DNA of 64,000 nucleotides, from NCBI GenBank assembly GCA_026709085.1, contig JAPOTR010000050.1:1-64000 (forward strand), read 5' to 3'. The notes below the pieces were generated by a model. It searched no databases. It worked only from the letters and a program-made list of their open reading frames with translations, and had not been told where the DNA came from. Below are positions 16,780 through 55,175 of this stretch, in pieces. Numbering within the stretch: position 1 is the first letter of the stretch; every line of letters begins with the position of its first letter. Source of the DNA: Cyanobacteria bacterium MAG CAR3_bin_5. Lineage in GTDB: Bacteria; Cyanobacteriota; Cyanobacteriia; PCC-6307; Cyanobiaceae. Both the position numbers and the translations under genes were made by a program.

Positions 16780-16821
16780 ACGGTGCTCTCCATCCGGCGA
16801 ACAGGGGCCGGCCTGGATGGC

Positions 16822-18410: not shown

Positions 18411-18593
18411 CGAGGACCACACATCCTCTCAATCCTTCCCCATGGGTCCATCCTCTCGCTATCAAAAGCCAGGCAGTCAAGGGGGTTCTCAAGGGCCGAT
18501 AACTCTTTCAGGTGGGGAAACAGTGACTTTCCCTGGTGTCCTTATCCACAACTGGGATATCGATAGGCTGAGGTTTCATGTGATCATGGCCTG

Positions 18594-19889
18594 ATGAACG
18601 TCCCACTTCCCCTATGGCTGAAGCGCGCCCTGGCCCTGTCCGGGTGCAGCGCCTTGCTGATTCTGAGCAGTGGCGCCCTACCCAGGCGCAGTTGGGCGAC
18701 TCTCATTACAGACAGCCCCAAGGAGGTGATTGACGAGGCATGGCAGATCATTTACCGCAACTACCTGGTCTCCATCGGCGACTATGACAGGAAAAGCTGG
18801 CGCCAGTTGCGCAAGGAGTTGCTCTCGCAGAGCTATAGCACCAGGGACGAGGCCTACGAGGCCATTCGGGGCATGCTGCTCACCCTGGAAGACCCCTACA
18901 CCCGCTTCATGGACCCTGACGAATTCAAGGAGTTGCATATTGATACCACCGGTGAGTTGACGGGGGTGGGCATCCAACTCAGCTTCGATGAGGAAACCCA
19001 GCGGTTGACAGTGGTGGCGCCCATTGAGGACGGCCCGGCAGCCGCCGCCGGCGTGGAGACCAACGACCACATCGTGGGCATTGACGGCAAGGATGCCCGA
19101 GGGATGAGCTCGGAAGAGGCGGTGCAACTGATCCGCGGACCCATCGGTTCTCTCGTCACCCTCACCATCGAGCGAGAGGGGGAGAGCTTCGACGTGGTCA
19201 TCATCCGCGAGCGCATCAGCATCAACCCGATGGTGAGCCGGATCAACACAACCTCCGCCGGCGCCCAGGTGGGCTACATCCGTCTCAAGCAGTTCAGCGC
19301 CAACGCCGCCACAGACATGTCCAAGGTGGTCAGAGACATGGAAGCACAAGGGGTGGATGCCTATGTGCTGGACCTGCGTTTCAATCCCGGCGGCCTTCTG
19401 GAAGCCAGCGTGGCCATTAGCGATCAGTGGCTGGAGGTTGGCGTCCCCATTGTCAGCATTCAGGGAGGGCGCTCCAGGAGCATACGCCTCACGCGACAGG
19501 AGCCCCTCACGGACGACCCTCTGGTGGTTCTGGTCAACGGGGTCAGCGCCAGCGCCAGTGAGATCCTCTCCGGCGCCATCCAGGACAACGGCCGCGGCAA
19601 GCTCGTAGGGGAGCAAACCTTTGGCAAGGGGCTGGTGCAGTCCGTGCGGGCGCTTTCCGATGGTTCCGGCATGACCGTGACCATCTCCAAATATCTGACC
19701 CCCAACGGTCGGGACATTCACAGGGAAGGAATTGAACCGGACGTGGAGTCTGCCCTGAGCGTTGAGGAGTTGCGGGATCTGGGTGTGGACGGCTTGGGGA
19801 CCACCAAGGATCGCCAATACCGGGTAGCGGAAGGGGTCCTCCTGCAAGCCCTGGCTCAACCGCAAGGGGAAGACTCTCGGGATCTCTAG
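18594..19889 (+). CDS. ctpA: Carboxyl-terminal processing protease (D1 processing)
   Basis: CtpA (431 residues) removes the C-terminal tail of the photosystem II D1 precursor in the lumen. A signal peptide is visible at residues 1-37 (A-L-A-L-S-G-C-S-A-L-L). A PDZ domain with G-V-G-I-Q-L-S and the substrate groove occupies about 115-200. The Ser/Lys dyad is Ser320 in S-A-S-A-S-E and Lys345 in T-F-G-K-G-L-V-Q, 25 residues apart as in the family. The petB-petD genes that often sit near ctpA in cyanobacteria are not upstream here; decayed barrel genes are. Confidence 0.93.
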   Translation: MNVPLPLWLKRALALSGCSALLILSSGALPRRSWATLITDSPKEVIDEAWQIIYRNYLVSIGDYDRKSWRQLRKELLSQSYSTRDEAYEAIRGMLLTLEDPYTRFMDPDEFKELHIDTTGELTGVGIQLSFDEETQRLTVVAPIEDGPAAAAGVETNDHIVGIDGKDARGMSSEEAVQLIRGPIGSLVTLTIEREGESFDVVIIRERISINPMVSRINTTSAGAQVGYIRLKQFSANAATDMSKVVRDMEAQGVDAYVLDLRFNPGGLLEASVAISDQWLEVGVPIVSIQGGRSRSIRLTRQEPLTDDPLVVLVNGVSASASEILSGAIQDNGRGKLVGEQTFGKGLVQSVRALSDGSGMTVTISKYLTPNGRDIHREGIEPDVESALSVEELRDLGVDGLGTTKDRQYRVAEGVLLQALAQPQGEDSRDL

Positions 19890-23554: not shown

Positions 23555-24847
23555 ATGGAGCGAGGGTCTCCGTCCTTTGCATCCTGCTTGCTGGGGCCTG
23601 GCATTCAAGGAGCGCCGTCACAGGATTGCCACCCTCAAGCGCTCCTCAACCCCGTCAAAATCCTGGCATTGCCAGTCCGCTACCGCTGCGAGCCAACATC
23701 ACGACAGAAGATTGCCCTGGCGCAAGCCGTTGGTTGTGCCGGGGTTGTTTGGAACGACGCACTGGCTCTACGTCGGAAGCTGTGCCAAGAGGGCGAGAAG
23801 TACCCAGGCAGCGGGCAGTTGCAGAAGCGCTGCATCACCCAGGCGAAGCGGACTGCTGAACGCTCCTGGCTTGGCGCCGTCTCCGCCTCGATGCTCCAAC
23901 AGTCTGTGCGAGATCCGGACAAAGCCTTCCGTAACCGGTGGAAAGGCAAGTTCCGGGCTCCCCGCTTCAAGAAGCGGTCCAATGCTCAAAGCATCCGCAT
24001 CTGTGGCAAGGAGTTCAGGACAACCGACAGGGGTATCCGTTTCCCAAGGATCGGAGAACGAAACTGCGTTGGAGTCGCCCTCTCCCCAGCCCTCCAAGCT
24101 CCTGCGCCATCATCAAGGACAGGGAGGGCAGGGCGTTACTGTGCCGGTTTTGTGGTGGAGGTGGAGCGCAAGCAACTGGAGCCCAACGGCAAAGCGGTGG
24201 GCATCGACCTGGGCGCGGCATCCCTCGCCGTCGCTTCTGACGGTGAGAAGATCGCCCCTCCCAAGTTTCTGCGTGCTGCGCTGACACGACCGAGGAAACT
24301 CCAGAGGAATCTGAAGCACAAGCAACGTGGCTCACATCGCTTGGCCAAGGCCAGGCTCTTGGTAGCCGGATTGCACACCAAGGTCTCGGACAAGCGTCTC
24401 GACTTCCTGCATGAACTCGGTACTCGATTGATTCGCGAGAACCAAGCGGTCTCCATCGAGAACCTGCACGTGGCAGGGATGGTCAAGAATCGCAAGCTCT
24501 CCAAGGCAATTGCTGATGCCGGTTGGCGAACGTTCAGGACGCTCCTGGAGTACAAGGCTGAACTGTACGGCAGGGTATTGCACGTTGTCTCCCGTTGGCT
24601 GCCAACGTCTCAGGTCCGTTCTGTCTGCGGGCGCAGAGCCGGCAAGAAGCCGTTGAGTGTGCGGGCCTGGACATGCCCAGCCTGTGGCACTGAGCACGAC
24701 CGGGACGTAAATGCTGCACGAAACATCCTCGCCGCCAGCCCGGCGGCGAGGTTAAACGGACGTGGAGCCGAGAGTAAAACCAGTTTGCCGGTGTCTGGCT
24801 GTGAAGCGTCAACCCGTCTTGAAGGAGGAGTGTCATGCTTCTCCTAG
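23555..24847 (+). pseudogene. tnpB: tnpB with two compensating frameshifts and a broken zinc ribbon
   Basis: TnpB is an RNA-guided nuclease related to Cas12. RuvC motifs are visible: G-I-D-L-G with the first Asp, S-I-E-N-L with the Glu, and D-R-D-V-N-A-A-R-N-I with the last Asp. Between about 24055 and 24125 the family sequence (K-L-R-W-S-R-P-L-P-S-P-P-S-S-C) lies in another frame, so one indel shifts the frame and a second restores it; about 22 residues are scrambled. The zinc ribbon reads V-R-S-V-C-G ... C-P-A-C-G, with the first Cys replaced by Arg. The true start is uncertain: family similarity begins near V-K-I-L-A-L-P-V-R-Y-R-C at about 23655. The protein is probably inactive. Confidence 0.8.
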
Positions 24848-28369: not shown

Positions 28370-29245
28370 ATGCCACTTTCTCGAAACGTAGACCGGGTGG
28401 CCACACGGAAATCCACGTCACGCCATGCCTTGAACTACCTGCATTACGGCATCAGGGAAGGGGATCTGTTGCACATCTCTCAAGTGCCCAGGGGTCTTTC
28501 CTGTGAATGTGTGTGTCCAGCCTGCCACAAGTCTTTGGTTGCGAAGAAAGGGCGTCAGCGGGAGCATCATTTTGCCTATGCATCAGGCAACTCGTGTCAA
28601 CATGCAATAGAAACCGCCCTTCACTTGGCGGCCAAAGACGTGCTGGCAAGGAGACGGGAGATCGTCTTGCCAGCCATCGAGATCAGATTTCCTTACGACA
28701 AATCTGTTAATTATGATTTTTCCACCAAAGTGGTCACAATAGCGCCAGAACAACATTACCAACTCGATTCTGTTGAGTTGGAACATCGAGTGTCGGAAAT
28801 TATTCCTGATGTGTTAGCCAAAGTGAAAAATCGATCACTACTTATCGAGATACGAGTGACGCACAAAATTGATGAGCGTAAACTGAAAAAGATTCAAGAT
28901 CTCAATATGTCATGCATTGAAATAGATTTATCAAATATGCCTCGCAACTTTTCCGAAGAAGATATAGAAAAATGGATCATTGAAGCAGGTCCACACAAGC
29001 GCTGGATTCATAATGTTACCATAGAGCAGCGGCGTCAACGTATTCTTTCCCAGGCAACATCTCGTCCACTTTTCACTAATAGGATTCTCTTAACAGAATT
29101 TGTTTGTAATTGTCCACTTGAAGAACATGCTAAGTCTTATTGGATAAACGAAAAACGATATGCAGATTTCATGTATGAATGTGTTTATTGCAAGCATTTT
29201 TTAGCAAAGGATTATGAAAGAGGCTCTGTTATCTGTGATGCTTAA
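28370..29245 (+). CDS. CoiA-like protein: zinc finger plus PD-(D/E)xK nuclease-like domain
   Basis: The 291-residue protein has an N-terminal zinc-finger-like motif (C49-P-A-C52, H67, C76) with H-H-F-A-Y and an E-x-A-L-H-L-A-A-K helix, as in competence protein CoiA and related proteins. A nuclease-like core follows: P146-D147, then L-L-I-E160-I-R, where the third residue of the E-x-K motif is Arg rather than Lys (CoiA proteins also vary here). A second Cys set (C-N-C and C-V-Y-C) lies near the C-terminus. It sits directly upstream of a restriction-modification pair. CoiA-like proteins occur with competence genes and in defence islands; the neighbours favour defence. A weak alternative is a role in incoming DNA processing. 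Confidence 0.65.
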   Translation: MPLSRNVDRVATRKSTSRHALNYLHYGIREGDLLHISQVPRGLSCECVCPACHKSLVAKKGRQREHHFAYASGNSCQHAIETALHLAAKDVLARRREIVLPAIEIRFPYDKSVNYDFSTKVVTIAPEQHYQLDSVELEHRVSEIIPDVLAKVKNRSLLIEIRVTHKIDERKLKKIQDLNMSCIEIDLSNMPRNFSEEDIEKWIIEAGPHKRWIHNVTIEQRRQRILSQATSRPLFTNRILLTEFVCNCPLEEHAKSYWINEKRYADFMYECVYCKHFLAKDYERGSVICDA

Positions 29246-29425
29246 TCAAGAATCAGCAGAGAACAAAATCTCCAGGTTCTCAGCCTCAGCCTCAGCCGTT
29301 GAGAAGCGGTAGCCATGGGTTGAGATGCTCGTGAACTGGAGTGCTTGCGGCTGGGCCTGCATTACGGGCCTATGCTAAAATATGGACGGATGGATCCCGT
29401 ATTGTCCGACTCCAGGAAGAGCCCT

Positions 29426-31156
29426 ATGGCGCATTCGCTACCGTTTCAACCGTCTTTCCAAGGATTCTGCCCGGTCGCAGAAGCCGTTGAGCGGCTTGCC
29501 AGTGACGGCGGCACCGGAGAACGTGGCGCAGTCTACACCAAGCGGGAGGTGGTGGACTTCATGCTTGATCTGGTGGGATACACAGATGATCAGCCCCTCA
29601 CAAGCTTCCGTCTCCTTGAGCCGGCTTTTGGCGCCGGCGACTTTATTTTTCCTGCTGTGAAGCGACTCTTGAGCGCGGCGCAACATGAGGCGGACGGCCT
29701 CAGCCTTGAGCGTCTGGCACCCGCGATCCGTGGCGTCGAACTCCACCGTGCAACTTTTGCATGCAACCGCAAGGCCATGCACGCCATGATGATCGAGCAG
29801 GGCATGGGAGTTTCTGACACCGAAGCCTTATTGGATATATGGCTCAGCCAAGGAGACTTCCTACTCTCTGGTTTTGACCAGGACTTCACCCATGTGGTCG
29901 GCAATCCCCCCTATGTGCGCCAGGAAGCGATTCCCGATGTTCTCATGAAAGAATACCGGCAGCGCTACAACACGATTTATGACCGTGCAGACATCTATGT
30001 GCCGTTCATTGAACAATCACTTCGTTTATTGGGAGTAGAGGGGAAACTCAGCTTTATTTGTACTGACCGCTGGATCAAAAATCGTTATGGCAAAAAACTT
30101 CGCGAACTGGTGAGCAGCACGTATCACCACCTTACAACTTATGTGGATATGGTTGGCACGGACGCATTTCACACAGAAGTGAGTACGTATCCGGCTATCA
30201 TCGTGATTGAGCGTTGTGTTCCAGGGCAGACAAGTAAGGTGACACGTGTATTTTCCTGCCCCAAAATCAACATTAAAGTGCTGAGTGGCCTTGCCCGGGA
30301 GCTTAAAGCGCCGAAACTGCACCCATCGAGCACTATTCGGGAGATCAGCAAAATTGCTGCGGGTGGTGAGCCCTGGATCACTGAGAACCTCGACGCACTT
30401 GCACTTGTGCGACGCCTTGAAGCTGAGTTTCCGCGCTTGGAGGAAGCGGGATGCAAAGTGGGCATTGGTGTTGCAACTGGCGCTGACAAGGCATTCATCA
30501 GCGATTTTGACGCGCTCGATGTTGAACCATCCCGAAAGCTTCCCCTGGTGATGACCAGGGACATTCTCCAGGGCTATGTTCAATGGCGGGGCAAGGGGGT
30601 TATTAACCCTTTTACGGATGATGGCAAGCTTGTCAGTCTTGAGGATTTCCCCAAACTCAGGCGCTATTTGAACAAGCGCCATGGGCAGATTGCAAGGCGG
30701 CACATCGCAACCAAAGTGCCCCAGAACTGGTATCGGACAATCGACCGCATCTATCCCGAACTTGCACGCCGTGAGAAGCTCCTGATTCCTGATATCAAGG
30801 GCAAGGTGTCTATCGTCTACGAAGAAGGCAGGCTCTATCCCCACCATAATCTATATTTTATTACGTCCGACAAGTGGGATGTGCATGCATTGCAAGCCAT
30901 CATGCAATCCGGCATTGCTCGACTCTTCATTTCCCTCTATTCAACCAGGATGCGCGGCGGCTATCTGCGATTTCAGGCCCAGTACCTCCGGCGCATCAGG
31001 CTACCCCGTTGGGAGAGCCTGAGTGATTCTGTTCGGGAGCGCTTGAAGCACTATTCAGAGACCAATGATCAGCAGGAACTGAACGAGATTGTGATGAGCC
31101 TTTATGGTCTTTCTTCCGATGAAATGACTTTGGTTGAGGGAGAGAGAGTCAAATGA
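29426..31156 (+). CDS. Adenine-specific DNA methyltransferase, PaeR7I/XhoI-type
   Basis: A 576-residue N6-adenine methyltransferase. The SAM motif [11 protein letters not shown] is at 63-73 and the catalytic N-P-P-Y at about 161-164. The N-terminal [15 protein letters not shown] is typical of PaeR7I-family modification enzymes. The start ATG at 29426 (M-A-H-S-L-P-F) fits the family and has AGGA upstream; frames starting earlier add unmatched residues. It overlaps the restriction gene by 4 bp (ATGA). Expected recognition sequence is CTCGAG by analogy with the partner endonuclease. Confidence 0.88.
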
Positions 31157-31893
31157 GTCTTGATCTTGCCAACTATGAAACCCAAGCCCGTGAGGCCGTC
31201 AAGCTCTTCTGGGGCAGCCGTGAAGCTGCGCTCGCCAGGCAGATCGAATCCGGTAACCAGGATATGGGTTCCCGTGGCGCGGTGACGGCGGGCAAGAATA
31301 TGGATGGATTTCTTACAATTGCCCAATCACTGATTGAGGCCAATGGGTTTGCCCTTGCTGATATTTTCATACAGAAGCGTGTTTTGACGCTGCCAGGTTT
31401 CTTCCGGGCAACAAAGCTTTGGGACATGCTTGTGATTCATCACGGCGAGCTTGTTGCGGCGCTCGAATTCAAATCCCAAGTCGGCCCGTCTTTTGGCAAC
31501 AACTTCAACAATCGATCAGAAGAGGCCATTGGTGCTGCGCACGATCTTTGGACAGCCTACCGAGAGGGGGCATTTGGCAAAGATGCGCCACGCCCGTTTC
31601 TCGGTTGGATTATGCTTCTCGAGGATTGCGACAAGTCCAACATGCCGGTGCAGGACAAAGAGCCATATTTCCCGGTTGATCCAGCTTTCAAGGGCACGTC
31701 CTACGCCCAGCGCTATAACTTGCTGTGCAAACGGCTTGTACAGGAAGGACTCTATTCAAGCGCGACCTTTATTCTCTCACCTCGCACGGCGTCTGAAGAC
31801 GGCCAGTATCGCTACCTCAGTGCGCTCACCTCGCTCAAAACATTCGTTACCGAGTTTGCTGGTCATATCGCGACCGTAGCAGCAAAACGATAG
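31153..31893 (+). CDS. Type II restriction endonuclease, PaeR7I/XhoI family
   Basis: The 246-residue protein closely follows the PaeR7I pattern: [25 protein letters not shown] and [19 protein letters not shown]-(D/E)xK centre is visible as D91, E105 and K107. Members cut CTCGAG. A CTCGAG sequence occurs inside the gene at 31618-31623, so methylation by the partner is needed to protect it. The pair looks intact and should be functional. The region from 27.6 to 31.9 kb is an accessory insertion between futB and a UPF0104 gene. Confidence 0.9.
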
Positions 31894-40028: not shown

Positions 40029-40168
40029 GCTGGCTTGACGGTAAGGAGGGCGTCCAGTATCCGATCCGTCTTTTCACCAAGGGCTGACGGGAGGGATGGC
40101 AACAAAGCGAACGGACGGCTTCCTTGAGTCTACCCTCGAAGATCAGGATTGATGCCGTCACCCACACC

Positions 40169-41047
40169 ATGCCCGCTTCCATGACCGTCACCGATCCAGG
40201 CTCCCCCCCGTCTTCTGCCTCCACAATCCCCGTTCTTGTGGTTGGCGCCCTGGGGCGCATGGGCTCCCACGTGGTTCGGGCCGTCACGGCGGCAGCGGAT
40301 CTCAGCCTGGCGGCCGCCATTGATACGGCGGCGGAAGCCCAGGGGGAGGATATTGGCCACCTGCTGGGCCTGGGTACGCTGGACGTGGCGGTGAGCCGGG
40401 ATCTGGAGGGGCATCTCTGCCTGATCAGCCAGCAGCATCGCGGCGCCGTCATGGTGGATTTCACCCATCCTGCCGTGGTGTACGACCACACCCGGGCGGC
40501 CATTGCCTACGGGGTTCACCCGGTCATCGGCACCACCGGTCTGTCCCCCGAGCAACTGGAAGACCTGGCTGACTTCAGTCGCAAGGCGTCCGTTGGCGCG
40601 GCGGTGATTCCCAACTTTTCCGTGGGCATGGTGCTGTTGCAGCAGGCCGCCGTGGCGGCAGCCCGTTTCTACGATCATGCCGAATTGATCGAGTTGCACC
40701 ACAACGGCAAGGCGGACGCCCCCAGCGGCACCTGCATCAAGACCGCGGAGTTGCTGGAAGCCGGCGGCAAGACCTACAACCCGGCTTCCGTGGAGGAGAA
40801 GGAAAGCCTTGGGGGGAGCCGTGGCGGGCAGCGCCCCAGCGGTCTGCGGCTCCATGCCCTGCGGCTCCCCGGGCTGGTGGCCCATCAGGAGGTGATGTTT
40901 GGCGGCCCCGGGGAGACCTATACCCTGCGTCACGACACCATTGACCGCAGCGCCTACATGCCGGGCGTACTGAGAACCATTCGCCATGTGGGCGCCCTGG
41001 AGGGACTGATCTACGGGCTGGAACATCTCCTCACGGCGCCATGCTGA
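40169..41047 (+). CDS. dapB: 4-hydroxy-tetrahydrodipicolinate reductase
   Basis: DapB reduces the dihydrodipicolinate precursor in lysine and meso-diaminopimelate synthesis. The nucleotide-binding V-V-G-A-L-G-R-M-G is near residue 25, V-D-F-T-H-P at about 100, and the active-site signature [14 protein letters not shown] near 180 with the catalytic His and Lys. The length is normal (292 residues from 40169). Start choice between ATGs at 40169 and 40181 is open. Its stop overlaps the next gene by 7 bp. Confidence 0.95.
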
Positions 41048-42672: not shown

Positions 42673-43224
42673 TCACGACGTGGTATTGATCAGACCGTGT
42701 TCACGTGCCAGTGCCTCGTTGAGTACGATCACTGAAGCTGGATCAAAAGCCCAGGTCTTGATGGTTGGGTGCAAGGCTTCCTTGAGGGCATCTGTGATTG
42801 GCGACAAGGCATCATCTGGATGATCTTTCATCACTACTACGAACTTCACCTGAACCTGGGACAGCCTGAGTTTCTTGAATGCAAAGGGCAATTCCGGCTC
42901 ATCTTGCGGGTGTCTTCCCAGGACAGAAGCCAATCCTAGAGAGAGTGCATTGACTAACTTTTGCTTGATCTCGTCGATAAATCTCCCAAAGTTTCCTGAT
43001 GGATTGTCAGGATGAGGCGAACTTGATTTGGCCTCGACGATCCAGATTACGGGATTATTGTTGCTGGTGCTACCATTGTTGCGCAACAACAAAAACTCTG
43101 CTATCTTGACACCGTCCTGAATAGCCTCATAGACTTTGCTTGCCTCTACATAAAAGCATTTATCCTGCGCAAACGGGCCGAAGCGCATGCCTGATTCGGT
43201 GATGGTGATTGGTTGTGTGCTCAT
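42673..43224 (-). CDS. Small protein with nuclease-like E-A-K motif, partner of an ATPase
   Basis: A 183-residue protein with no named domain that I can assign. The central strand V-I-W-I-V-E-A-K-S-S-S resembles the E-x-K of PD-(D/E)xK nucleases, with an upstream acidic residue in K-I-A-E-F-L-L. Downstream are an amphipathic helix (F-I-D-E-I-K-Q-K-L-V-N-A) and strands V-Q-V-K-F-V-V-V-M-K. The C-terminus V-I-V-L-N-E-A-L-A-R-E-H-G-L-I looks conserved. The start overlaps the end of the ATPase gene by 4 bp (ATGA), so the two act as a pair. The nuclease role is inference. Confidence 0.7.
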   Translation of the reverse strand: MSTQPITITESGMRFGPFAQDKCFYVEASKVYEAIQDGVKIAEFLLLRNNGSTSNNNPVIWIVEAKSSSPHPDNPSGNFGRFIDEIKQKLVNALSLGLASVLGRHPQDEPELPFAFKKLRLSQVQVKFVVVMKDHPDDALSPITDALKEALHPTIKTWAFDPASVIVLNEALAREHGLINTTS

Positions 43225-44243
43225 CCCAGTGTCAGCTCCACCTCCTGTTTGTACATATCAATCGACTCGTTGATAATGGAATTGTCCGGCATTCCCTGCC
43301 GGAGGTCTGTGTAGGTCCACTGGTTTTCTTGGTTTCCCAGGGCAACCGGAATGGACATGTGCTGCTTTTGAGCCATCAGATATAGCTTCTTCACAACAAA
43401 ATAGGAATGGCTGGCCAGAAAAAACTGGATGCCGAATTCAGAAAGCAAGGCGATGATGTCCATGAATATGGAGATGGCCGAGGGATGCAGCGCTGCTTCC
43501 GGTTCATCAATGAATACAATCGAATGTTGATCGAGATAACGATTGCCCAGCAACCTGTCCAGTATGGCTATCTTCTTGATGCCTTCTGAAGTGACCCAGA
43601 TAGGGAACTTCAGATTCCCTTGTCTGAAATGCCAGCCACCGGTTTCTTTATCCCGGTCCACCTTGCCGCCAAGCATATCCTCCAATATCCGTCGCGCCCG
43701 GGCAAACGCCTGGTAATTCTTGCCTCTGGTGGTGTCATCTCCCAACGCTCGGGCCAGATCAAGATAGGTGTCGTCAAAACCAAAGAGCTGGTCCCGATCA
43801 CGGGAACGGAGAATGACCTGATGCAGTGACAACACCTCTTTCGCCGGCAGGAAGATGGAATTACTTGCCCGTGGCGGAACGTGGTTTTCGAGCGATTGAA
43901 TCTGCTTGGTGGTGTCCTTGCCGAAGCGGTACTGGAAGTCGTTTTCATCAAGTCGTATCCTGGATATCAGGGGGCCTTCCACGCCCTTGCCCTTGCTCAC
44001 CAGATCACCAATTTTGTCTGATTCGAATGTCCACCTGAGCTTTTCGACGAGAATCTCCGGGGCAGTTCTTGGATCGTTACCCCGCTTGTATGCTTCCAAT
44101 GTCCGCATGGCGCAGTAGCAGGCTTTCATCAGGAACGTCTTGCCGGCCCCATTGCCGCCGATGATCAGGTTGATGGGGCCAAGGTGGTCCCATTCCACCT
44201 TGCCAAGTGGCCCGAAATTGATCAACTCGATTTGATTCAGCAC
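43221..44243 (-). CDS. OLD/SMC-like AAA ATPase of a two-gene cassette
   Basis: A 340-residue ATPase of the ABC/SMC class. Walker A G-G-N-G-A-G-K-T is at 29-36, the signature-like S-E-G-I-K-K-I-A near 220, Walker B S-I-V-F-I-D-E-P-E-A-A-L-H-P near 241-254, and the His switch F-L-A-S-H-S-Y near 274. The C-terminal TOPRIM nuclease of full OLD proteins and of GajA is absent, so the partner encoded downstream may supply the effector. ATPase plus small nuclease recalls Septu (PtuA/PtuB), but PtuB is an HNH protein. It begins the minus-strand unit and is divergent from the MmeI-type gene. Confidence 0.8.
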   Translation of the reverse strand: MLNQIELINFGPLGKVEWDHLGPINLIIGGNGAGKTFLMKACYCAMRTLEAYKRGNDPRTAPEILVEKLRWTFESDKIGDLVSKGKGVEGPLISRIRLDENDFQYRFGKDTTKQIQSLENHVPPRASNSIFLPAKEVLSLHQVILRSRDRDQLFGFDDTYLDLARALGDDTTRGKNYQAFARARRILEDMLGGKVDRDKETGGWHFRQGNLKFPIWVTSEGIKKIAILDRLLGNRYLDQHSIVFIDEPEAALHPSAISIFMDIIALLSEFGIQFFLASHSYFVVKKLYLMAQKQHMSIPVALGNQENQWTYTDLRQGMPDNSIINESIDMYKQEVELTLG

Positions 44244-44712
44244 GGTGATGCTCCTGGTGGGCTTGTTGCGGCTGTGGTCAAGCGATGGCCGCTGCTGCTG
44301 TCATCTTTCTACAAAGGCTACCAGAGAATACCATCATGGGACCATGAGAAGAGCTTTCCAAGGCTGCATGAACCTGAAACGAGCCGGGCGGTCATGGCAG
44401 AAAGCAGCGTGCAGTCGTCCCCACGGCTCACGCTATGAGACTTGGGAAAGAAGGGTTGGGTTCTCTCAAGCTGCTGCCCAGTGAGCCAGAACAAGCGGGC
44501 CATCCCTCTTCCTGCAGGTCTCTGGCGTGAACGGCGGGGATTCCAGATCTCGGCAGCCTTCAATAGTGTAGCATGTTCTCGGGCGTGCTGCGCACGGTCG
44601 TATTGGTCGCCATCCCTCCCTTCTCTGAAGAAGCAGTCTCCCAGTCCATGCTGATGAACCACAACAGCACTCCGCGGAAACTGCAGAAAATCGCTCCGGT
44701 TGAGGTCGTGTG
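44244..44712. other. 469-bp intergenic stretch between ATPase and MmeI-type genes
   Basis: No convincing gene, RNA or repeat was found here. Short frames exist on both strands but have no conserved motifs. It must hold the divergent promoters for the cassette and the restriction gene; no hexamer pair was convincing. Confidence 0.5.
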
Positions 44713-47502
44713 ATGCGCCTGTCCTGGAATGAAGTGCGGGCCCGGGCGGCCGTTTTTGCTGAGGAATGGCAAGCCGCCGCCTACGAGAAGGGGGAGACCC
44801 AGAGCTTCTACAACGCCTTCTTCCGGGTGTTCGGGGTGAAGCGGCGCAGTGTGGCCCGTTATGAAGCCCACGTGGCCAAGCTGGGCAACCGCTCCGGGTT
44901 CATTGACCTGTTCTGGCCCGGGGTGTTGCTGGTGGAGCAGAAAAGCGCCGGGCGGGATCTGGGCAAAGCCTATGAGCAGGCGGGGGAATACTTCGACGCG
45001 CTGCCGGAGCGGGAGCGGCCCCGCTACATCCTGGTGAGCGATTTCCAAACTTTCCACCTCCACGACCTGGAGGAGGGGGACACGGTGACCTTCCCCCTGG
45101 CGGAGTTACCGGACTACGTGGAGGCATTCGGCTTCATCCTGGGGGTGCAACGGCGCGCGTTCCGGGATCAGGACCCGGTGAACATCGCCGCCGCCGAACT
45201 GGTGGGGTTACTCCACGACCAGTTGGCGGCAGCGGGCTATCGGGGTCACGACCTGGAACGGTTCCTGGTGCGTATCGTGTTCTGTCTCTTTGCCGACGAC
45301 ACCGGCATCTTCGAGCCCCGGGACATCTTCCTGGACCTCATGGAAAGCCGCACCAGTGAGGACGGCTTCGACACGGGTTCACGCCTAGCGGAATTGTTCC
45401 AGGTGCTGGATACACCGGAAAGCGAACGCCAGAACAACCTGGACGAGGACCTGGCCCGTTTCCCCTATCTCAACGGCGGCCTCTTTGGCGGCGCCTTGCG
45501 GATTCCCTCCTTCAACCCCGCCATGCGCAGCGCCCTGCTGGACGCCTGCCGGTTTGATTGGTCCCAAGTCTCCCCCGCCATCTTCGGGGCATTGTTTCAA
45601 TCGGTGATGGACCCGGGCCAGCGGCGCGCCCAGGGGGCTCATTACACCACCGAGAAAAACATCCTCAAGGTGATCGAGCCGTTGTTCATGGACGATCTGC
45701 GGGCCGACTTTGCCCGTCTGCAAGCCCGTAAAACCCGGCGGCGGGCAGCGCTGCAAAACTTCCAAACCAGACTTGGGGAGCTAACCTTCTTTGATCCCGC
45801 CTGTGGCTGCGGCAATTTCCTGATCATTGCCTACCGGGAATTGCGTTTGCTGGAGATTGAAGTTCTCAAAGCGCTCCATCCCAGGGATCGGGACGGCGGC
45901 CGGCAAAGGGAAGGGTTTGCAGGGGACCTGTCTCAACTGAACGTGGATCAGTTCTACGGCATCGAACTGGGGGAGTTTCCGGCCCGCATTGCCGAGACGG
46001 CGTTGTGGATGATGGACCACATCATGAACAACCGGCTCAGCCTGGAGTTTGGTCAAACCTTTGTGCGCATTCCCCTGGAAACATCCCCCAATATCGTCCA
46101 CGGCGATGCGCTGGAACTGGATTGGGCCGAATTGCTGAAACCCGGCAAGTGTTCTTTCGTGTTTGGCAATCCGCCCTTTGTGGGGGCAAAATACCAAACC
46201 ACCGGGCAACGGGCACAGGTGCGCCGGATTGCAGATCTAGGCAAGAGTGGCGGCACACTGGATTACGTAGCCGCCTGGTTTATCAAAGCAGGAGGGTATA
46301 TGAAAAGCGGCAAGGGAAGAATTGCCTTTGTGGCCACCAACTCCATCACCCAGGGGGAACAGGTGGGCCAACTCTGGCCGCTTGTATTTGACCGCTGCAA
46401 ACTGGACATCGCCTTTGCCCACCGCACCTTCGCCTGGGGTTCCGATGCCCGCGGTAAAGCCCACGTCCACGTGGTGATCCTGGGCCTGGAGCCGCGGAAT
46501 ACTACACGGCAAGAGAAGCGGCTGTTCAGCTATCCCGACATCAACGGGGAACCGGAGGAAAGCCGTCATAAGGTGTTGTCGCCCTATCTGTTCGATGCCG
46601 GCAGCCTCTCCGACCCCCATCTGGTGGTGCGGGAGGAAAGCGCGCCCATCAACGGGATGAGCAGATTGATCATCGGCTCCAAGCCCATTGACGGCGGCAA
46701 CTATATCTTCGACACGGCAGAACGTAGGGCGTTTCTGGAAACGGAACCCGAAGCCGCGCCATGGCTCCGTCCATTCATCGGCGCACGGGAATACCTGCAG
46801 GGCGGTGAACGGTGGATTCTGGCGCTACACAATGCGCCGCCGGATCTGCTGGCGCGACTGCCCCAGGTGCGGGAGCGGATCGCCGCGGTCCGCGCCTATC
46901 GGGAGGCCAGCAAGAGTAGGCTGACACAGAAACTTGCTGCGACGCCAACGCTCTATCACGTCAACGTCATCCCCACGGCGCCGTTTCTGGTGATTCCTGA
47001 AGTCAGTTCGGAACGAAGGGAATACGCGCCCATTGGTTGGCTGGAGCCGCCGGTGATCCCTAGCAATAAGCTCCGTCTGCTTGCGAACGCGAAACTCACC
47101 GACTTTGCACTTTTGACTTCGGCCATGCACATGGCATGGACGCGACACATCGGCGGTCGGCTGAAAAGCGACTACCAGTATTCAGTAGGCATCAACTACA
47201 ACACCTTCCCGCTGCCACCCAAGGATGCCGATCTCTCGAAACTGGAGCCGTTGGCCCAAGCTGTGCTCACTGCCCGCGCTGCCCATCCCGGCGCTACGCT
47301 GGCTGATCTCTACGATCCCTTAACCATGCCGCCCAATCTTCGCAAGGCTCATCAAGCGCTTGATCGGGCGGTGGATCGGCTTTATCGGCGCTCTGGGTTT
47401 GCTTCCGAGCGGGAGAGGGTGGAGTGTTTGTTGATGATGTATGAGGGGTTGAGGGCTCCATTGAAGGCGCAGGCAAAGAAGAAGAGGGGGAGGCGGCGTT
47501 AG
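44713..47502 (+). CDS. Single-chain restriction-modification enzyme, MmeI family (type IIL)
   Basis: The 929-residue protein combines nuclease, adenine methyltransferase and DNA-recognition parts. The nuclease signature D65-x9-E75-Q-K77 (F-I-D-L-F-W-P-G-V-L-L-V-E-Q-K-S) is the MmeI D-x9-E-x-K arrangement. The SAM motif F-F-D-P-A-C-G-C-G-N-F lies near 358-368 and catalytic N-P-P-F near 485-488. The C-terminal third should contain the target-recognition domain, which sets both cutting and methylation specificity. The target sequence cannot be read off. ATG 44713 follows GAGG at a good distance. No frameshift was found, so the enzyme should be active. Confidence 0.9.
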   Translation: MRLSWNEVRARAAVFAEEWQAAAYEKGETQSFYNAFFRVFGVKRRSVARYEAHVAKLGNRSGFIDLFWPGVLLVEQKSAGRDLGKAYEQAGEYFDALPERERPRYILVSDFQTFHLHDLEEGDTVTFPLAELPDYVEAFGFILGVQRRAFRDQDPVNIAAAELVGLLHDQLAAAGYRGHDLERFLVRIVFCLFADDTGIFEPRDIFLDLMESRTSEDGFDTGSRLAELFQVLDTPESERQNNLDEDLARFPYLNGGLFGGALRIPSFNPAMRSALLDACRFDWSQVSPAIFGALFQSVMDPGQRRAQGAHYTTEKNILKVIEPLFMDDLRADFARLQARKTRRRAALQNFQTRLGELTFFDPACGCGNFLIIAYRELRLLEIEVLKALHPRDRDGGRQREGFAGDLSQLNVDQFYGIELGEFPARIAETALWMMDHIMNNRLSLEFGQTFVRIPLETSPNIVHGDALELDWAELLKPGKCSFVFGNPPFVGAKYQTTGQRAQVRRIADLGKSGGTLDYVAAWFIKAGGYMKSGKGRIAFVATNSITQGEQVGQLWPLVFDRCKLDIAFAHRTFAWGSDARGKAHVHVVILGLEPRNTTRQEKRLFSYPDINGEPEESRHKVLSPYLFDAGSLSDPHLVVREESAPINGMSRLIIGSKPIDGGNYIFDTAERRAFLETEPEAAPWLRPFIGAREYLQGGERWILALHNAPPDLLARLPQVRERIAAVRAYREASKSRLTQKLAATPTLYHVNVIPTAPFLVIPEVSSERREYAPIGWLEPPVIPSNKLRLLANAKLTDFALLTSAMHMAWTRHIGGRLKSDYQYSVGINYNTFPLPPKDADLSKLEPLAQAVLTARAAHPGATLADLYDPLTMPPNLRKAHQALDRAVDRLYRRSGFASERERVECLLMMYEGLRAPLKAQAKKKRGRRR

Positions 47503-47547: not shown

Positions 47548-50500
47548 TCAGTCACCGATGCTTGGCCATGAGTTCTTGACTTCGGAGAACTCGTTCGGAT
47601 TGCTGCACACTTCCTGCCAACGTTGAATCGCTTTCGGCTCTCCCAGTTCAGAATCTTGATAGTATTCGAATAGTGCAAACGCTAAGGACGCTGCCTCAGC
47701 ACGGATGGTGATCACCCCATCTTCGTCGTTACCTTTGACACCGCTTGACGTCTCCTCCACAATTTGTTCCAGGCCAGCGAGCAGATCACCTATATCTACT
47801 AGCAAAAGAAACCATCGCTGCTTTTTCACTAAATCTGCTACGGTCACAAGCTTGCTGATGAGTGCAGGGCGATGCCTCCATTGGATACCTTGCACAAGCA
47901 TCGCGGCTATGGGACCAAACTCGTCACGTGAATCCTCCTTTGCCAATTTCCATGCCAAGATATTGGCTGCCAAGAGTGCATCATGAACAATGTCAGAATC
48001 ACTATGGGGCAATGCCTCCATCACTTTCTTGAACAACTTTCTCCGAGACCGAGTCTCCTTACTCAAGATCGCTGCCTCTAAACCCTTTGCAGGAATATTA
48101 TACTCGGCGAGTTCGACGAGAAGATTCCGTAGCTGCTCAACTCCTTCGTCTTCATCATCTTTGGGAAGGTGCAAAAATACTTCTGACAAGGCGCGTACAG
48201 TTTTTTGGATCGTGCATTTCATTACGTTCGCAGGTGAATCCAAAGATGTCGGTGTGCAGTAGCGTAGAGAAAACTTGTGTCTGCCCCACCATCCTGAGAA
48301 CTCCGCGATTAAGTCTAAGGCTTCTGCCTTAGACCATTCTACTATCTCTGCAGACTGACGAAGCTCGACTAAAACTTTGTTCATTTGGCTGCTCGCAATT
48401 TGATTGTCTCGCATTTGCTCACTGAAAATAGATCTCAGATGCTGTCTTGTCCGCGGTTTCGGGTCAATATTCTCAGGATGTGGCAACTTTATGTATTGAG
48501 AGATGTAGCATCTAGTTACAATCGGTAATCCTGAAGCCTCAACGCCATCCCATAATAGCTTCTCTAATTGACTGGACTGATGTCGGTTCAGCTTGCCCCA
48601 CCCATGCAACTGGACGAGCGATGTCATTGCCCAGTCACGGTCCTGTGAAGCAAGAGCTAGCCGAAGTAACTCGTCTATTCTTTCCTCTGCTATACATAGC
48701 ACTTCTCCACGTGCCAATGGGGGCAGAAAAATCCAGAATATCGGGTTGATAAATTCTCTCCTTTGGAGATTGCTCAGACCATCCGGTATCGGGAAGTCAA
48801 TAAGTGAAGACGCTGCACTAACGCGCTCTTTAACTGACATACTGTCAAAGAGGCGGCGGGCGAACTTCTTGACTCCTTCAAACATTTCCCTCTGTTTTGA
48901 ACTGTAGATCGCACGAAGTACAACAACTAAATCCTCCCGGTATGCTGGAGAGCATTTGTAGCAGAGGCGCGAGAATATGTCTGGGAGAATTTTTGCCAAC
49001 GGCTTGAAGTTCTTTATTTTGGATAGATCTGATTCATTAACCATATCAATCGTACATTTGAAAGCTGGCAAGTAGACTTCAAAAAACCTATCCACATTCT
49101 CTAAACTAAGACTAGGACTAGATAGATACTCACGGTCAAACAGCCAGTCAATGGCCTTGGCCTTGCCAAGACGCACAATGTTTACTAGTGCCCAGTGTGG
49201 AGCATGATGACGTATACGATGTAGTGTCGACTCAATGGCTCCTACAAAAATTCTCTCTATGCGGTTTTCATACTCTATACGATAGGGCATACCGAAACCC
49301 TCATACATCCGAAGTATATTGTAGGCCTTAACTATTTCCTCGTCAAATCCAAATCGCAATGTATTAGACACCATTCCAAGATCAAAACTATAGGTATTGC
49401 TTTCCCATTGCCAGCAAGCTTCTGGATGTTGCAGACGTGCAGATAACAACTCGATTTCACGATTCGGATCGCATTTGTATTGTGCAAGATCGTTCCATCG
49501 CTCAGACATTGCACTGTCCTCTGAATCTGGTCCCGTTATGGTCCGACCATGTTCTACTGCCCAGAGCAGAAGCATGATGATCGACTCCTGCGAGACTAGT
49601 GTGTAGTCTTTAATAACTGGGCTCAGACTTAACTGCTGGCGTACGGATGCCAGGCTGGTTTCCAAAATTGAGTGTGCAGCAGCTACTTCTCCTAACTCCG
49701 CCATCAGAGCTGCACGCTTTGCCTCCCAAAAGGGAAGGCTGTCATTGCTCTGCCAGTTGACCAGAAGCCGTTTTGCCTCATCAGGATTGAAACAGAATAG
49801 TGCATGCAATATCTTTTCTAATTGAAATCTGGCTTTGTCTTCAGGTAGCAGATTCTCAGAATCATTCTGGATTATCTGTCTGACTTCCTGCCACTCGTCA
49901 TCTAAACCCTGTTCGCGATAATACCGAAGTAGCCATAGCCGGATACTCACGACGGCTTTGAGTACAGATGTTGTCGTCCAATGAGTATTCTCTAAAGACT
50001 GCAACTGTCCATCACTGTACTTCTTTGCTACATCCTTAAAGAATGACGGTAACTCACCAATTAGCGGGAATAGACATCGATCCAGACGCCACCCCAGTTC
50101 GAATGCCAGATCCAGGTCTAAGGGCGCTTCCAGGTGATTACGGTCTTCTGACGACATTTCAGAAATAAGTGATAGCCAGTTCTGGGTGTAGAGCCATAGG
50201 AACTGACGTCGATCACTGGGTATGACAACCCAACCTGGATACTCGCCTCGCTGCCGCCGCCACTCCGCTACAACTTCATGGTACTTGCTGGGGTCACTGC
50301 TCATCCCTGGCGCACCTGCCGAAACGGTTGGCCAATCTAAGGAGCGAGTCTCGCGGCTTTTCAGGCAATTCAGAAACTTACCTAACGCTTTTCCATCATT
50401 CGTTTTGAATATTGATAGGTCTACTACAACAATGCCCCGACGGTCGAGCAGCTTTCTGTCTCCCTCGCCCAGCGTACTAAACATCCCAACTAGATAGATT

Positions 50501-51192
50501 TTCGGGGCGGTCTCCTTGCCAATGTGGTCTCGTATCCACCCGATCCACTGCAGGAAGTTTGGGTCGTCACCTGAAAACCCAATCAAACAAAGAGTGTTTT
50601 CAAGTAATGACTGGCGCACAGTATTGACGAACGGCGCGTTATCGTTGGGATAGCGGCGGTAATCTTCCTCAGTGATGACGAAAGGAGGCGATGGAAAACT
50701 GCCATGCAGCTTGATGATTCTTGGTTGGTTTGCATAGAGCAGGTTTTCCTTCGTTGTCACGATGTCGTAGTTCTTTAATGTCACAGATGCGCGTGCCCGC
50801 TCAAGAAGCGTATCGTAGTTTGTCGTGAATACATCCTTCCAGGGTAGGCTTAACAGTTGGCTATGCAACGGTGAAGGCTCGTACCTCAAATCTGGAATGG
50901 CATCGCGGAGTAGTTGGTTCAGTGCGGGGCGTCCGAAAGCAGCCTCAACCTGTTCGGCCAGCTTCAGGATGCTCAAGTACCTGGCTCCTTCCCGTGGGCG
51001 ATGCCCGCGTAGCTTCTCAAAGAAACGATCTCCAAGTTCTTGCCAGCTTGGGAAAGATGCGGATGTGGAACCCACAGGTTTAGCATTCCGGCTGAAACCG
51101 GCACCCACCATCACTGCGGCGTTGTTCGACCACAGTCGATCCGCAATCTGGCCAAGGTATGGCTTGATTTGGCTGGGAACGTCAACAGGCAT
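47548..51192 (-). CDS. Large SIR2-domain protein, probable anti-phage NADase
   Basis: The 1214-residue protein has an N-terminal SIR2 domain (about 1-290): G-A-G-F-S-R-N at 30-36, T-T-N-Y-D at 123-127, K-L-H-G-S with the catalytic His at about 163, and G-F-S-G-D-D-P-N at 205-212. The remaining 900 residues are mostly helical with no family motif I can name, fitting a sensor and assembly region as in DSR1 and DSR2 proteins. Those deplete NAD on phage infection. It lies in an island with two restriction-type systems. Start was set at ATG 51192; a GC-rich extension is possible. The base composition is lower than the flanking core genes, suggesting transfer. Confidence 0.82.
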   Translation of the reverse strand: MPVDVPSQIKPYLGQIADRLWSNNAAVMVGAGFSRNAKPVGSTSASFPSWQELGDRFFEKLRGHRPREGARYLSILKLAEQVEAAFGRPALNQLLRDAIPDLRYEPSPLHSQLLSLPWKDVFTTNYDTLLERARASVTLKNYDIVTTKENLLYANQPRIIKLHGSFPSPPFVITEEDYRRYPNDNAPFVNTVRQSLLENTLCLIGFSGDDPNFLQWIGWIRDHIGKETAPKIYLVGMFSTLGEGDRKLLDRRGIVVVDLSIFKTNDGKALGKFLNCLKSRETRSLDWPTVSAGAPGMSSDPSKYHEVVAEWRRQRGEYPGWVVIPSDRRQFLWLYTQNWLSLISEMSSEDRNHLEAPLDLDLAFELGWRLDRCLFPLIGELPSFFKDVAKKYSDGQLQSLENTHWTTTSVLKAVVSIRLWLLRYYREQGLDDEWQEVRQIIQNDSENLLPEDKARFQLEKILHALFCFNPDEAKRLLVNWQSNDSLPFWEAKRAALMAELGEVAAAHSILETSLASVRQQLSLSPVIKDYTLVSQESIIMLLLWAVEHGRTITGPDSEDSAMSERWNDLAQYKCDPNREIELLSARLQHPEACWQWESNTYSFDLGMVSNTLRFGFDEEIVKAYNILRMYEGFGMPYRIEYENRIERIFVGAIESTLHRIRHHAPHWALVNIVRLGKAKAIDWLFDREYLSSPSLSLENVDRFFEVYLPAFKCTIDMVNESDLSKIKNFKPLAKILPDIFSRLCYKCSPAYREDLVVVLRAIYSSKQREMFEGVKKFARRLFDSMSVKERVSAASSLIDFPIPDGLSNLQRREFINPIFWIFLPPLARGEVLCIAEERIDELLRLALASQDRDWAMTSLVQLHGWGKLNRHQSSQLEKLLWDGVEASGLPIVTRCYISQYIKLPHPENIDPKPRTRQHLRSIFSEQMRDNQIASSQMNKVLVELRQSAEIVEWSKAEALDLIAEFSGWWGRHKFSLRYCTPTSLDSPANVMKCTIQKTVRALSEVFLHLPKDDEDEGVEQLRNLLVELAEYNIPAKGLEAAILSKETRSRRKLFKKVMEALPHSDSDIVHDALLAANILAWKLAKEDSRDEFGPIAAMLVQGIQWRHRPALISKLVTVADLVKKQRWFLLLVDIGDLLAGLEQIVEETSSGVKGNDEDGVITIRAEAASLAFALFEYYQDSELGEPKAIQRWQEVCSNPNEFSEVKNSWPSIGD

Positions 51193-51975
51193 TGCTCGCC
51201 TCCTGAGACGCCGCCGCGGCAAAGGCTATCCCTTCTGAAAACAGGAACCCGGAAAGCTGCTGCGATCCGTTGTTGAGGTTGCCCAGGCTCTCCCTGGCCA
51301 CTGACCCGCTGTTGCAAAAGGAAGACATCCGGCCTTGTCGGTTGGCAGTTGAAACGGCAGTTGCTAGATTAGCTCAGCAACAAGCATAGTGGAGGGACCA
51401 GGATGGCTCGTAGCGACCTGCTTGTTTCCCTGGTCCAAGCCGGTGCCTCGGGAGACAGCAAGGAACTGGCCACCACAGTATTCTGTCATTGCCAGCACCC
51501 GAGAGCGGGGACAACTCTTCCCATGGGCCGGGCTTCCCTTGTGACATGTCAAGTCTGTCCCAATTCTCGCCCAGGGAGTGGAATTTGACCAATGACCCAG
51601 CTCGGGATACGCTGTTGCTGCCGACTCCTGACGCTCGGTCTGCGTCCCCACAGGGAAAAACCCGGAATGGGTGGCGAAACAAACGGCAACAATGCTCCTG
51701 AAGAGTCTAGTACGTTGCTACTATTTGGGTGACAGCTTATGCCCTGCCGTGTACGCTGCCACCATTGACCCCTTGCTACCACCAGCCCCTGACTTCCAGT
51801 TCTCCATGGCCCACCCGATTCGTCACGAGGCACCCACCGAGCCAATCCATCTGAGCGGTCCAGGGGCAGTGCAACCGGCCAACGGCCCGCTTTCGGAAAG
51901 GGCGGGAACGGTCCACACCGCCTTCCGCCACAGGCGCACAATGCAGGTAACAAGGATTTTCCAAGGAGGCCCCAA
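51193..51975. other. 783-bp stretch between the SIR2 gene and the Panacea gene
   Basis: I found no full gene. It contains the truncated ATPase start at 51403 and otherwise only short frames without motifs. GGAGG just before 51976 is the ribosome-binding site of the Panacea gene. The rest looks like decayed DNA. Confidence 0.5.
51403..51588 (+). pseudogene. Possible N-terminal remnant of an AAA ATPase
   Basis: A well-placed GGAGG precedes an ATG at 51403. The first residues M-A-R-S-D-L-L-V-S-L-V-Q-A-G-A-S-G-D-S resemble the start of a family of defence-type AAA ATPases that I recall, often paired with a subtilisin-like protease. After about 25 residues the similarity stops and the frame ends at 51588. 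No Walker motifs are present. The similarity is from memory and should be tested. Confidence 0.3.
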
Positions 51976-52464
51976 ATGACCATCGATGTTCTTCAGGCGG
52001 CAAAGTGTCTTGGCCGAATGTCAAGTTGGAGATTTTCCAACTTGGAATTGCAGAAGATAATTTACATTTGCCATATGCTTTATTTCAGTCAACAAGGAGA
52101 GCCCTTGGTCAAGGGACATTTTCAGGCTTGGGATTATGGCCCTGTCCACCCCAAGCTTTATCATCGACTAAAACGTTTTGGTTCATCTTCCATTGATCAA
52201 TCTGCTCTTAGAAATGTAAAAGACTTAAAGATTGATCTGCATAGAGACATGATTAACATCTTAAAAGAAGCATTTGAACATTTCCCCCCTGGTTCAGGCC
52301 CAAAACTTGTGGCGATTACCCATTGGGAGAAAGGTGCCTGGGCAAAAAATTATATCTGTGGAATGAAAGATCTTGTAATTTCTCATGATGACATTCTGGA
52401 AGAATACAAACAACGTCAAACAGAAAAACTTCGCAAACAAGAGCAAAAGGAGAATGAACAATGA
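51976..52464 (+). CDS. Panacea-domain (SocA/DUF4065-like) antitoxin
   Basis: The 162-residue protein has the Panacea pattern: helix F-S-N-L-E-L-Q-K-I-I-Y-I-C-H, then G-E-P-L-V-K-G-H-F-Q-A-W-D-Y-G-P-V-H-P-K-L-Y. Panacea antitoxins neutralise very different toxins, each encoded next door. A strong GGAGG lies 6 bases before the ATG. The C-terminus is a charged Lys/Glu/Gln tail that overlaps the next gene by 4 bp (ATGA). The base composition is clearly A/T-rich compared with core genes. Confidence 0.82.
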   Translation: MTIDVLQAAKCLGRMSSWRFSNLELQKIIYICHMLYFSQQGEPLVKGHFQAWDYGPVHPKLYHRLKRFGSSSIDQSALRNVKDLKIDLHRDMINILKEAFEHFPPGSGPKLVAITHWEKGAWAKNYICGMKDLVISHDDILEEYKQRQTEKLRKQEQKENEQ

Positions 52465-52826
52465 AGAAGCAAGATTTAACCGCAAGAGCGGAAGACAAGC
52501 TTCAAGAGGTTTCGTTTGACGATTTGGATAGAATTGAACCTACCAAGCAAGATTATTTTAATGAGAAACTTGCACTTGAAAACGAAGATCTCAAAAATAA
52601 AATCAACCAGAAACAAACATATTCAAAGATATTCGTCTGCATGGGAATCTCCTGGCTTGTCTTTCTAGGAGCTATTGTATGTGCGAATGGAATGCCAAAG
52701 GATTGGGGTAGATTCTCCACCAGTGATAAAGTCATGATTACGTTGATTGCTACTTCTTCCTTTCCCCCACTGATTCTAGTTGCTAAATATCTCTTCGGGG
52801 ATTCCGGGAAGAAGAACTCAGCATGA
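52461..52826 (+). CDS. Two-helix membrane protein, probable toxin partner of the Panacea antitoxin
   Basis: The 121-residue protein has a charged N-terminal half with coiled-coil character (residues 30-50, L-A-L-E-N-E-D-L-K-N-K-I) and two hydrophobic helices near 57-77 (F-V-C-M-G-I-S-W-L-V-F-L) and 88-112 (V-M-I-T-L-I-A-T-S-S-F-P-P-L-I-L-V). Membrane-acting toxins are one described class of Panacea partners. The 4-bp overlap with the antitoxin gene supports the pairing. I see no enzymatic motif. Toxicity is inferred from layout only. Confidence 0.65.
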   Translation: MKKQDLTARAEDKLQEVSFDDLDRIEPTKQDYFNEKLALENEDLKNKINQKQTYSKIFVCMGISWLVFLGAIVCANGMPKDWGRFSTSDKVMITLIATSSFPPLILVAKYLFGDSGKKNSA

Positions 52827-53699: not shown

Positions 53700-55175
53700 T
53701 CACGCCGGAGACTGCCGGGCGGCGGTCTCCACAGTGGCCACCACCTCCCGCACCCGCTCCCCGAAACTACGAGCCCGCTCCATGACGGCCTTCTCGTCCA
53801 CGGTGAGGATTTGGCGATCCCGCACCACGATCCGGCCGTTCACAATGACCGTATCCACGTCACTGCCCCGGGCTGCATACACCAAGTGGGAATAGACCCG
53901 GTAGAGGGGCGTCAGCCCTGGACGCTCCATGTCCAGCAGGACAACATCGGCCCGTTTGCCCGGCTCCAGGGACCCGATTTCATCCTGCAGGTTCAGCACC
54001 CGGGCGCCGCCCATGGTGGCCATGCGGAAGACCGTCTCCGCCGGGAGAGCGGTGGGGTCACCCAACGCGAACTTCTGGAGCTTGGCGGCGGCATTCATCT
54101 CGTCGAACAGGTCCAGGTTGTTGTTGCTGGCGGGTCCGTCGGTTCCCAACCCCACCGGAATGCCGGCCGCCAGCGCCTCTGTCACCGGCGCCGCCTTCGG
54201 GATGCCCAGTTTCATGTTGCTCTGGGGGTTGTGGGCAATGCCGGCGCCCCCCGCCGCGATGCGCGCCATGTCCTCATCGGACAGGTAGATGGAATGGGCC
54301 AGCACGGTGCCGGGCCTCAGGGCGCCGATGGAATCCAGGGCTTCCACCACCCCCATGCCGGTTGCCTTCCGGGCGGTGGCCTCTTCGGAGGAGTCTTCAA
54401 GAACGTGAATCTGGAAAACGGCATCGTGGGCCTCCGCCAATCGGAAAGCGGCCGCCACGGCAGGAAGGGGGGTGGTGTAGAGGGCATGGGCGCTGATGGA
54501 AGGCGTCAGGGTGGGGTGGCGTCGATAACGTTCCATGAATGCCGCCGCTTCCGCCAGTGAGGCTTCCGGCGTGGGGAAATCGGGTGTGGGGAATCCCACC
54601 ACCAGAGGACCGCTCACGGCCCGGATCCCCGCGTCAATGGAGGCCTGGGCCATCTGGTCACGGAAGTAGTACATATCCGTGAAGGTGGTCGTCCCGCTTT
54701 TCAGCATCTCCACCGAGGAGAGCAAGGTGCCCCAGTAGACGAAATCGGGGTCCACCAGAGCCGCCTCTGCGGGGAAGACATATGCTTCCAGCCAGGTCAT
54801 GAGTGGTAGATCGTCCGCCAGGCCCCGCAGCAGCGACATGGCGGCGTGGCCATGGGTGTTCACCAGGCCGGGGATAACCAAGTGGCCCGTTGCGTCAAGG
54901 ACCGGAACATGGGTAGGGCGGGGTGCATCCGGCTCCAGCAGGGCCGTGATGCGGTCCCCCTCGATCAGCACCGCGCCCCCCTCCAGGACGTTCCCTTCAT
55001 CGTCCATCACCACCACCACGCCACCGTCAACAAGGAGGGCATGGTGGGGGAAAACAGGCGTATTGGGGTCGGCGGCAGCAGGATCGGGCTTCAGAGGTCC
55101 GGCCACGGGCGGGGCTGTGGTTGTGATGAAAAGATCACCGTACCAGTGGCCTGTTGTCTCGCCATGGCCACCCAT
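53700..55175 (-). CDS. Amidohydrolase, adenosine/S-adenosylhomocysteine deaminase-like
   Basis: The 491-residue protein is an AHS-type deaminase (MtaD/SAH deaminase and related). Metal ligands are visible: N-T-H-G-H-A-A-M, a His in S-A-H-A-L-Y and in F-Q-I-H-V-L-E-D, and G-T-D-G-P-A-S-N-N with the catalytic Asp. It is likely to deaminate adenosine derivatives such as 5'-deoxyadenosine, methylthioadenosine or SAH; the exact substrate is not decided. The first 35 residues show no conservation, so the real start may be later than ATG 55175. It marks the right boundary of the island. Confidence 0.87.
   Translation of the reverse strand: MGGHGETTGHWYGDLFITTTAPPVAGPLKPDPAAADPNTPVFPHHALLVDGGVVVVMDDEGNVLEGGAVLIEGDRITALLEPDAPRPTHVPVLDATGHLVIPGLVNTHGHAAMSLLRGLADDLPLMTWLEAYVFPAEAALVDPDFVYWGTLLSSVEMLKSGTTTFTDMYYFRDQMAQASIDAGIRAVSGPLVVGFPTPDFPTPEASLAEAAAFMERYRRHPTLTPSISAHALYTTPLPAVAAAFRLAEAHDAVFQIHVLEDSSEEATARKATGMGVVEALDSIGALRPGTVLAHSIYLSDEDMARIAAGGAGIAHNPQSNMKLGIPKAAPVTEALAAGIPVGLGTDGPASNNNLDLFDEMNAAAKLQKFALGDPTALPAETVFRMATMGGARVLNLQDEIGSLEPGKRADVVLLDMERPGLTPLYRVYSHLVYAARGSDVDTVIVNGRIVVRDRQILTVDEKAVMERARSFGERVREVVATVETAARQSPA

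Follow-up and report, generated by a model that had tools for sequence, protein, structure and literature searches.

A Dsr2-family gene in a cyanobacterial genome

It is very probable that the window (the whole 64,000-nucleotide stretch of DNA analysed here) encodes a complete Dsr2 protein, in the PADLOC and NCBIfam sense of that family, which probably arrived by horizontal transfer; it would be a single-gene anti-phage system acting through hydrolysis of NAD+. The gene itself is ordinary: it is one more Dsr2, although the family is rare in this cyanobacterial lineage. We note, as a caution, that the tail-tube mechanism was published for the 1005-residue family of Bacillus subtilis, and that its transfer to the 1215-residue database Dsr2 is unsupported.

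The region is occupied by one minus-strand gene of 1214 codons, running from an ATG at 51192 to a TGA at 47550–47548, while the plus strand has stops throughout. The start is supported because a consensus AGGAGG stands 6 bases ahead of it. The length of the frame, together with the existence of full-length homologues in many phyla, means that it is not a chance frame. The features discussed below are listed in Table 1.

Table 1. Features of the dsr2-type gene and its neighbours, in window coordinates.
Feature	Coordinates	Strand	Evidence or remarks
dsr2-type gene, intact, 1214 aa	47548..51192	-	Open frame; PADLOC Dsr2 1163 bits; NCBIfam Dsr2 1176 bits
Shine-Dalgarno AGGAGG	51199..51204	-	6 bases 5' of ATG; sequence itself
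N-terminal SIR2 (NADase) domain, ~residues 9-269, N125/D127/H163	50386..51168	-	Pfam SIR2_2; ThsA profile; structural match; conservation
C-terminal helical region, residues 270-1214, predicted HEAT/ARM-type alpha-solenoid	47551..50385	-	AlphaFold2; fold search; Dsr2 profiles
MmeI-type restriction-methyltransferase	44710-47502	+	
HEC-02A/B pair	42673-44243	-	HEC-02A ATPase 500.8 bits, HEC-02B 203 bits; candidate two-gene defence system in PADLOC
Panacea-domain (SocA-like) antitoxin gene and small adjoining gene	51976-52826	+	

The Dsr2 family of these databases (PADLOC PDLC02184, NCBIfam NF041819) is reportedly attributed to Gao et al. 2020. Its PADLOC profile spans residues 3–1209 of the 1214, and residues 6–1209 match positions 1–1215 of the 1215 in the NCBIfam model. 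The protein shares with the family a length of about 1215 residues, the SIR2 domain followed by a helical tail, and the single-gene arrangement, but its NCBIfam score of 1176 bits lies below the curated equivalog cut-off of 1400 bits. The protein therefore cannot be taken as a strict equivalent of the named Dsr2, and we place it at the level of the family, in a divergent clade. When one genome per species was scanned, 44 relatives turned up, spread over many phyla. About 35 bacterial homologues, again from many phyla, align with the window protein across most or all of their length, tail included, the nearest being a protein from a Binatia MAG (65% identical). Since the tail aligns end to end in the full-length homologues, we conclude that the 900-residue tail is a trait of the family.

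An earlier sequence-only reading had described a 1214-residue SIR2 protein, and more specifically one of the DSR type whose SIR2 domain is intact. Both descriptions are correct, on the evidence of the open frame, Pfam SIR2_2, the two Dsr2 profiles and the conservation of residues. Its proposal that the C-terminus could be a new type of sensor is not upheld, given the reach of the two profiles: the protein matches an already known DSR family, Dsr2, over its full length, and so is not novel. The statement that no motif could be assigned to the C-terminus holds for Pfam but not for PADLOC and NCBIfam, whose Dsr2 profiles cover the whole tail. Likewise, the protein does group apart in the sense of a five-member divergent subclade (see below), but this subclade is still inside Dsr2.

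The SIR2 domain and the helical tail

Pfam recognises SIR2_2 in residues 121–239 (E 3.6e-21), and the PADLOC ThsA profile matches residues 9–229. The domain has a GAGFS motif near residue 31, a T-T-N-Y-D motif containing N125 and D127, and the pair H163-G164; the TTNxD and HG catalytic residues that mark Dsr2 members are present. N125 and D127 are invariant in 37/37 homologues and H163 is kept in 36/37, the sole exception having N at this position. An H-to-N change of this kind is also known from active Avs5 proteins (PMC12931631). G164, S207, D210 and N212 are likewise unvarying among the 37 aligned proteins. The three catalytic residues expected from the sequence alone are thus retained. The SIR2 part of the AlphaFold2 model superimposes on the solved SIR2 domains of ThsA and of the B. 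subtilis DSR2 with Z scores of 25–27, at 2.4–2.7 Å over about 250 residues (with 8wyc_C, Z is 27.5 at 2.4 Å over 250 residues).

The structure of residues 15–1214 was predicted by AlphaFold2 from a 37-row alignment, with a mean pLDDT of 83.6 and a pTM of 0.70; for the tail alone (residues 270–1214) the values were 84.6 and 0.81. Both models show an almost entirely helical tail, which bears out the helical C-terminal region of some 900 residues that had been anticipated. Importin-beta-like proteins, exportin and armadillo proteins rank first in a fold search with the tail, which is confidently modelled as an all-helical, HEAT/ARM-like solenoid and is presumed to be the sensor and oligomerisation part of the protein. 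No match at E 0.001 or better was obtained when a library of viral structures was searched with the tail, and sequence searches of the PDB gave no convincing match for the tail of the PADLOC/NCBIfam type of Dsr2.

Comparison with DSR2 of Bacillus subtilis

The DSR2 of B. subtilis 29R (WP_029317421, 1005 aa; PDB 8k98 and others) has the same SIR2 fold and catalytic residues, its N133 and H171 corresponding to N125 and H163. Its tail is likewise helical, with HEAT repeats, and its overall shape is collinear with that of the window protein, although the match between the tails is no better than that to unrelated solenoids (see below). The window protein is however about 200 residues longer, and the two tails have no detectable sequence similarity, as tested via one Lysinibacillus relative of B. 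subtilis DSR2 and not a deep alignment of that family. This relative aligns with the solved DSR2 over residues 6–980 (E 4e-42), and it matches neither PADLOC Dsr2 nor NCBIfam Dsr2. When the tail profile of the window protein's family was compared with the tail of the Lysinibacillus protein, hhalign gave a probability of 0.1, and a profile search with filters off scored −1.0 bits. In the PDB, the profile of the window protein's family matches solved DSR2 through the SIR2 region only.

If the window protein were nevertheless a DSR2 of the B. subtilis type, its tail would, as the solved structures show for DSR2, recognise the phage tail-tube protein. The architecture is common to both, and DSR2 chains can be aligned with the full-length model over 631–742 residues at 6–7.6 Å. 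The tail alone is also collinear with that of DSR2, residues 295–880 aligning to DSR2 302–857 (424 residues at 6.2 Å), but with a Z score of 10.0 and a rank of 47 this match does not stand out from those to unrelated solenoids, the best of which reaches Z 12.7. The 302–857 stretch of DSR2 comprises an HTH domain, a helix bundle and six HEAT repeats, and it is these parts, together with the C-terminal domain, that bind the tail-tube protein and DSAD1 (PMC11263360, PMC10973363). The activator-binding regions vary among the DSR2 proteins of different species and are not conserved (PMC11087589). With this variation, sequence matches confined to the SIR2 domain, and a Lysinibacillus relative that is found neither by the tail profile nor by the database Dsr2 models, we consider a B. 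subtilis-type DSR2 unlikely. As the tails have no detectable sequence similarity, a tail-tube trigger should not be assumed for Dsr2 of the PADLOC/NCBIfam type. It is possible, though less likely than not, that the Dsr2 of the databases and the DSR2 of the structural literature are two separate inventions, each joining a SIR2 NADase to an unrelated solenoid tail, in which case the sensor of the window clade would be one without a solved structure and something else than the tail-tube protein would trigger it.

A divergent clade within Dsr2

A quick maximum-likelihood tree places the window protein in a clade of five, with proteins from a Binatia MAG and a Pseudomonadales MAG and two proteins from one Rhodobacteraceae MAG (supports 98 and 100). 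Its closest kin are thus in other phyla and are not the other cyanobacterial Dsr2, since the other intact cyanobacterial protein (G109, locus L055) lies elsewhere in the tree, among other phyla. The window protein and three of its clade relatives score 1058–1192 bits with NCBIfam Dsr2, against 1607–1693 for three typical members. By sequence, then, the family is a known one and the clade a divergent branch of it.

One might suppose that the tail of this clade is a new class of sensor, detecting something other than what the rest of Dsr2 detects. The well-supported clade and its low scores are consistent with this. The other clade members are 72–93% identical to the window protein over the SIR2 domain and 34–46% identical in residues 915–1064 of the tail, the least conserved stretch. 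However, the tail aligns with other Dsr2 from end to end (958/958 profile columns, 1035 bits), and defence proteins commonly diverge fast at their sensor surface, and we therefore find a new sensor class improbable and retain the assignment to Dsr2.

Two different Dsr2 of the clade, L012 and L026, come from the Rhodobacteraceae MAG (COS2_bin_10), and their identities to the window protein are 61% and 58%; an MmeI-like gene adjoins L026, as it does the gene in the window. In another genome (G229, contig C1), a dsr2 of the cyanobacterial class is split into two frames, L057 and L065, with one match crossing an internal TGA, and this gene is probably a pseudogene.

Genomic setting and acquisition

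The dsr2 gene has a GC content of 48% (49% at third positions), compared with 57–65% (68–79%) for clpB, glgB and an amidohydrolase gene, and it sits in a GC-poor defence island with the neighbours given in Table 1. The region at 40124–41044, on one side of dsr2, is shared with congeners at 88–96% identity, and that at 53703–55175, on the other side, is 83–92% identical in the five congeners with a long match. Nine congeners gave no full-length match to the window protein. Since the genes flanking the island on either side are conserved across the genus, the contig is the organism's own, and acquisition is the most likely origin of the island. The two congeners in which both flanks were found have them on different contigs, and for this reason no clean empty insertion site could be demonstrated there.

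An isolated gene of low GC in an assembly of 67 contigs, lacking a full-length match in nine congeners, might alternatively be degraded or mis-binned and so non-functional in the cyanobacterium, but this is highly improbable in view of the intact 1214-codon frame, its consensus Shine-Dalgarno sequence, the presence of all the catalytic residues, the genes shared with congeners on either side, and the photosystem II reaction-centre genes in the genome, on account of which it is taken to be cyanobacterial.

The flanks of the 44 related loci were compared all against all, and no family is common to them as a partner. The only recurring families are scattered restriction-modification genes, type I-like in seven loci and MmeI-like in two loci and the window; a HEC-02-like family occurs in one locus and the window. 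An obligate partner gene was therefore rejected, and the dsr2 gene of the window fits the description of Dsr2 as a stand-alone gene. Among 50,697 phage records there was one partial match only, and among 72,556 plasmids there was no match over 80% of the query.

The small gene beside the Panacea antitoxin gene encodes 121 residues with hydrophobic stretches and the look of a membrane protein, and the two genes overlap by 4 bases. Both have a GC content of 40%. The 121-residue product has no Pfam or PADLOC match, and the two genes look like a toxin-antitoxin pair with an undescribed toxin. Further away on the plus strand, the window contains a low-GC XhoI-type restriction endonuclease gene with a type II methyltransferase gene (28370–31893), in which group an upstream gene of 291 codons has a product with a weak match to the CoiA N-terminal domain, and an IS200/IS605-type TnpB RNA-guided nuclease gene (23555–24847).

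Proposed mechanism

The mechanism of DSR proteins with a SIR2 domain and a helical tail was worked out on B. subtilis DSR2 (PMC10973363, PMC11263360, PMC11087589). For the window protein, the sequence shows an intact gene with its NADase residues, a family-wide helical tail, the lack of a conserved partner and the setting in a defence island. In the proposed scheme, the resting protein would be an inactive oligomer. On infection, the alpha-solenoid tail would bind a phage protein, and this binding would release the SIR2 domain. The freed domain would hydrolyse NAD+ to ADP-ribose and nicotinamide, and the loss of NAD+ would stop phage production, probably because the infected cell dies or ceases to grow. 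By analogy with DSR2 and with earlier findings on SIR2 defence proteins, NAD+ depletion and cell death are likely outcomes for the window protein.

Other SIR2 systems

Three further systems with a SIR2 domain were considered. The likeness to Thoeris ThsA lies in this domain (PADLOC ThsA residues 9–229; Z 25 over 248 residues), but the window protein has a long solenoid tail and the C-terminal SLOG domain was not found, Pfam giving only SIR2_2 and a sub-threshold chance match; identity with ThsA was accordingly rejected. Avs5 (SIR2-STAND) also has a SIR2 domain, and was rejected because the Pfam scan of the window protein gave no STAND NTPase domain. DSR1 shares the combination of SIR2 with a tail of about 900 residues; the PADLOC and NCBIfam Dsr1 models gave no match to the window protein at E 1 or better.

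Another contig of the same genome encodes a second large SIR2 protein, of 1216 residues and with a divergent tail (C65, locus L004; 11042–14689, minus strand). It is Dsr1-like (PADLOC 215.6 bits; NCBIfam 287 bits, with a cut-off of 1400), and the genome thus has both Dsr1-like and Dsr2-type proteins. Gene duplication was considered and rejected, since the two are similar in length but the tail of this protein is unrelated to that of the window protein. A type IIG restriction-methyltransferase gene at 15165–18821 adjoins the L004 gene.
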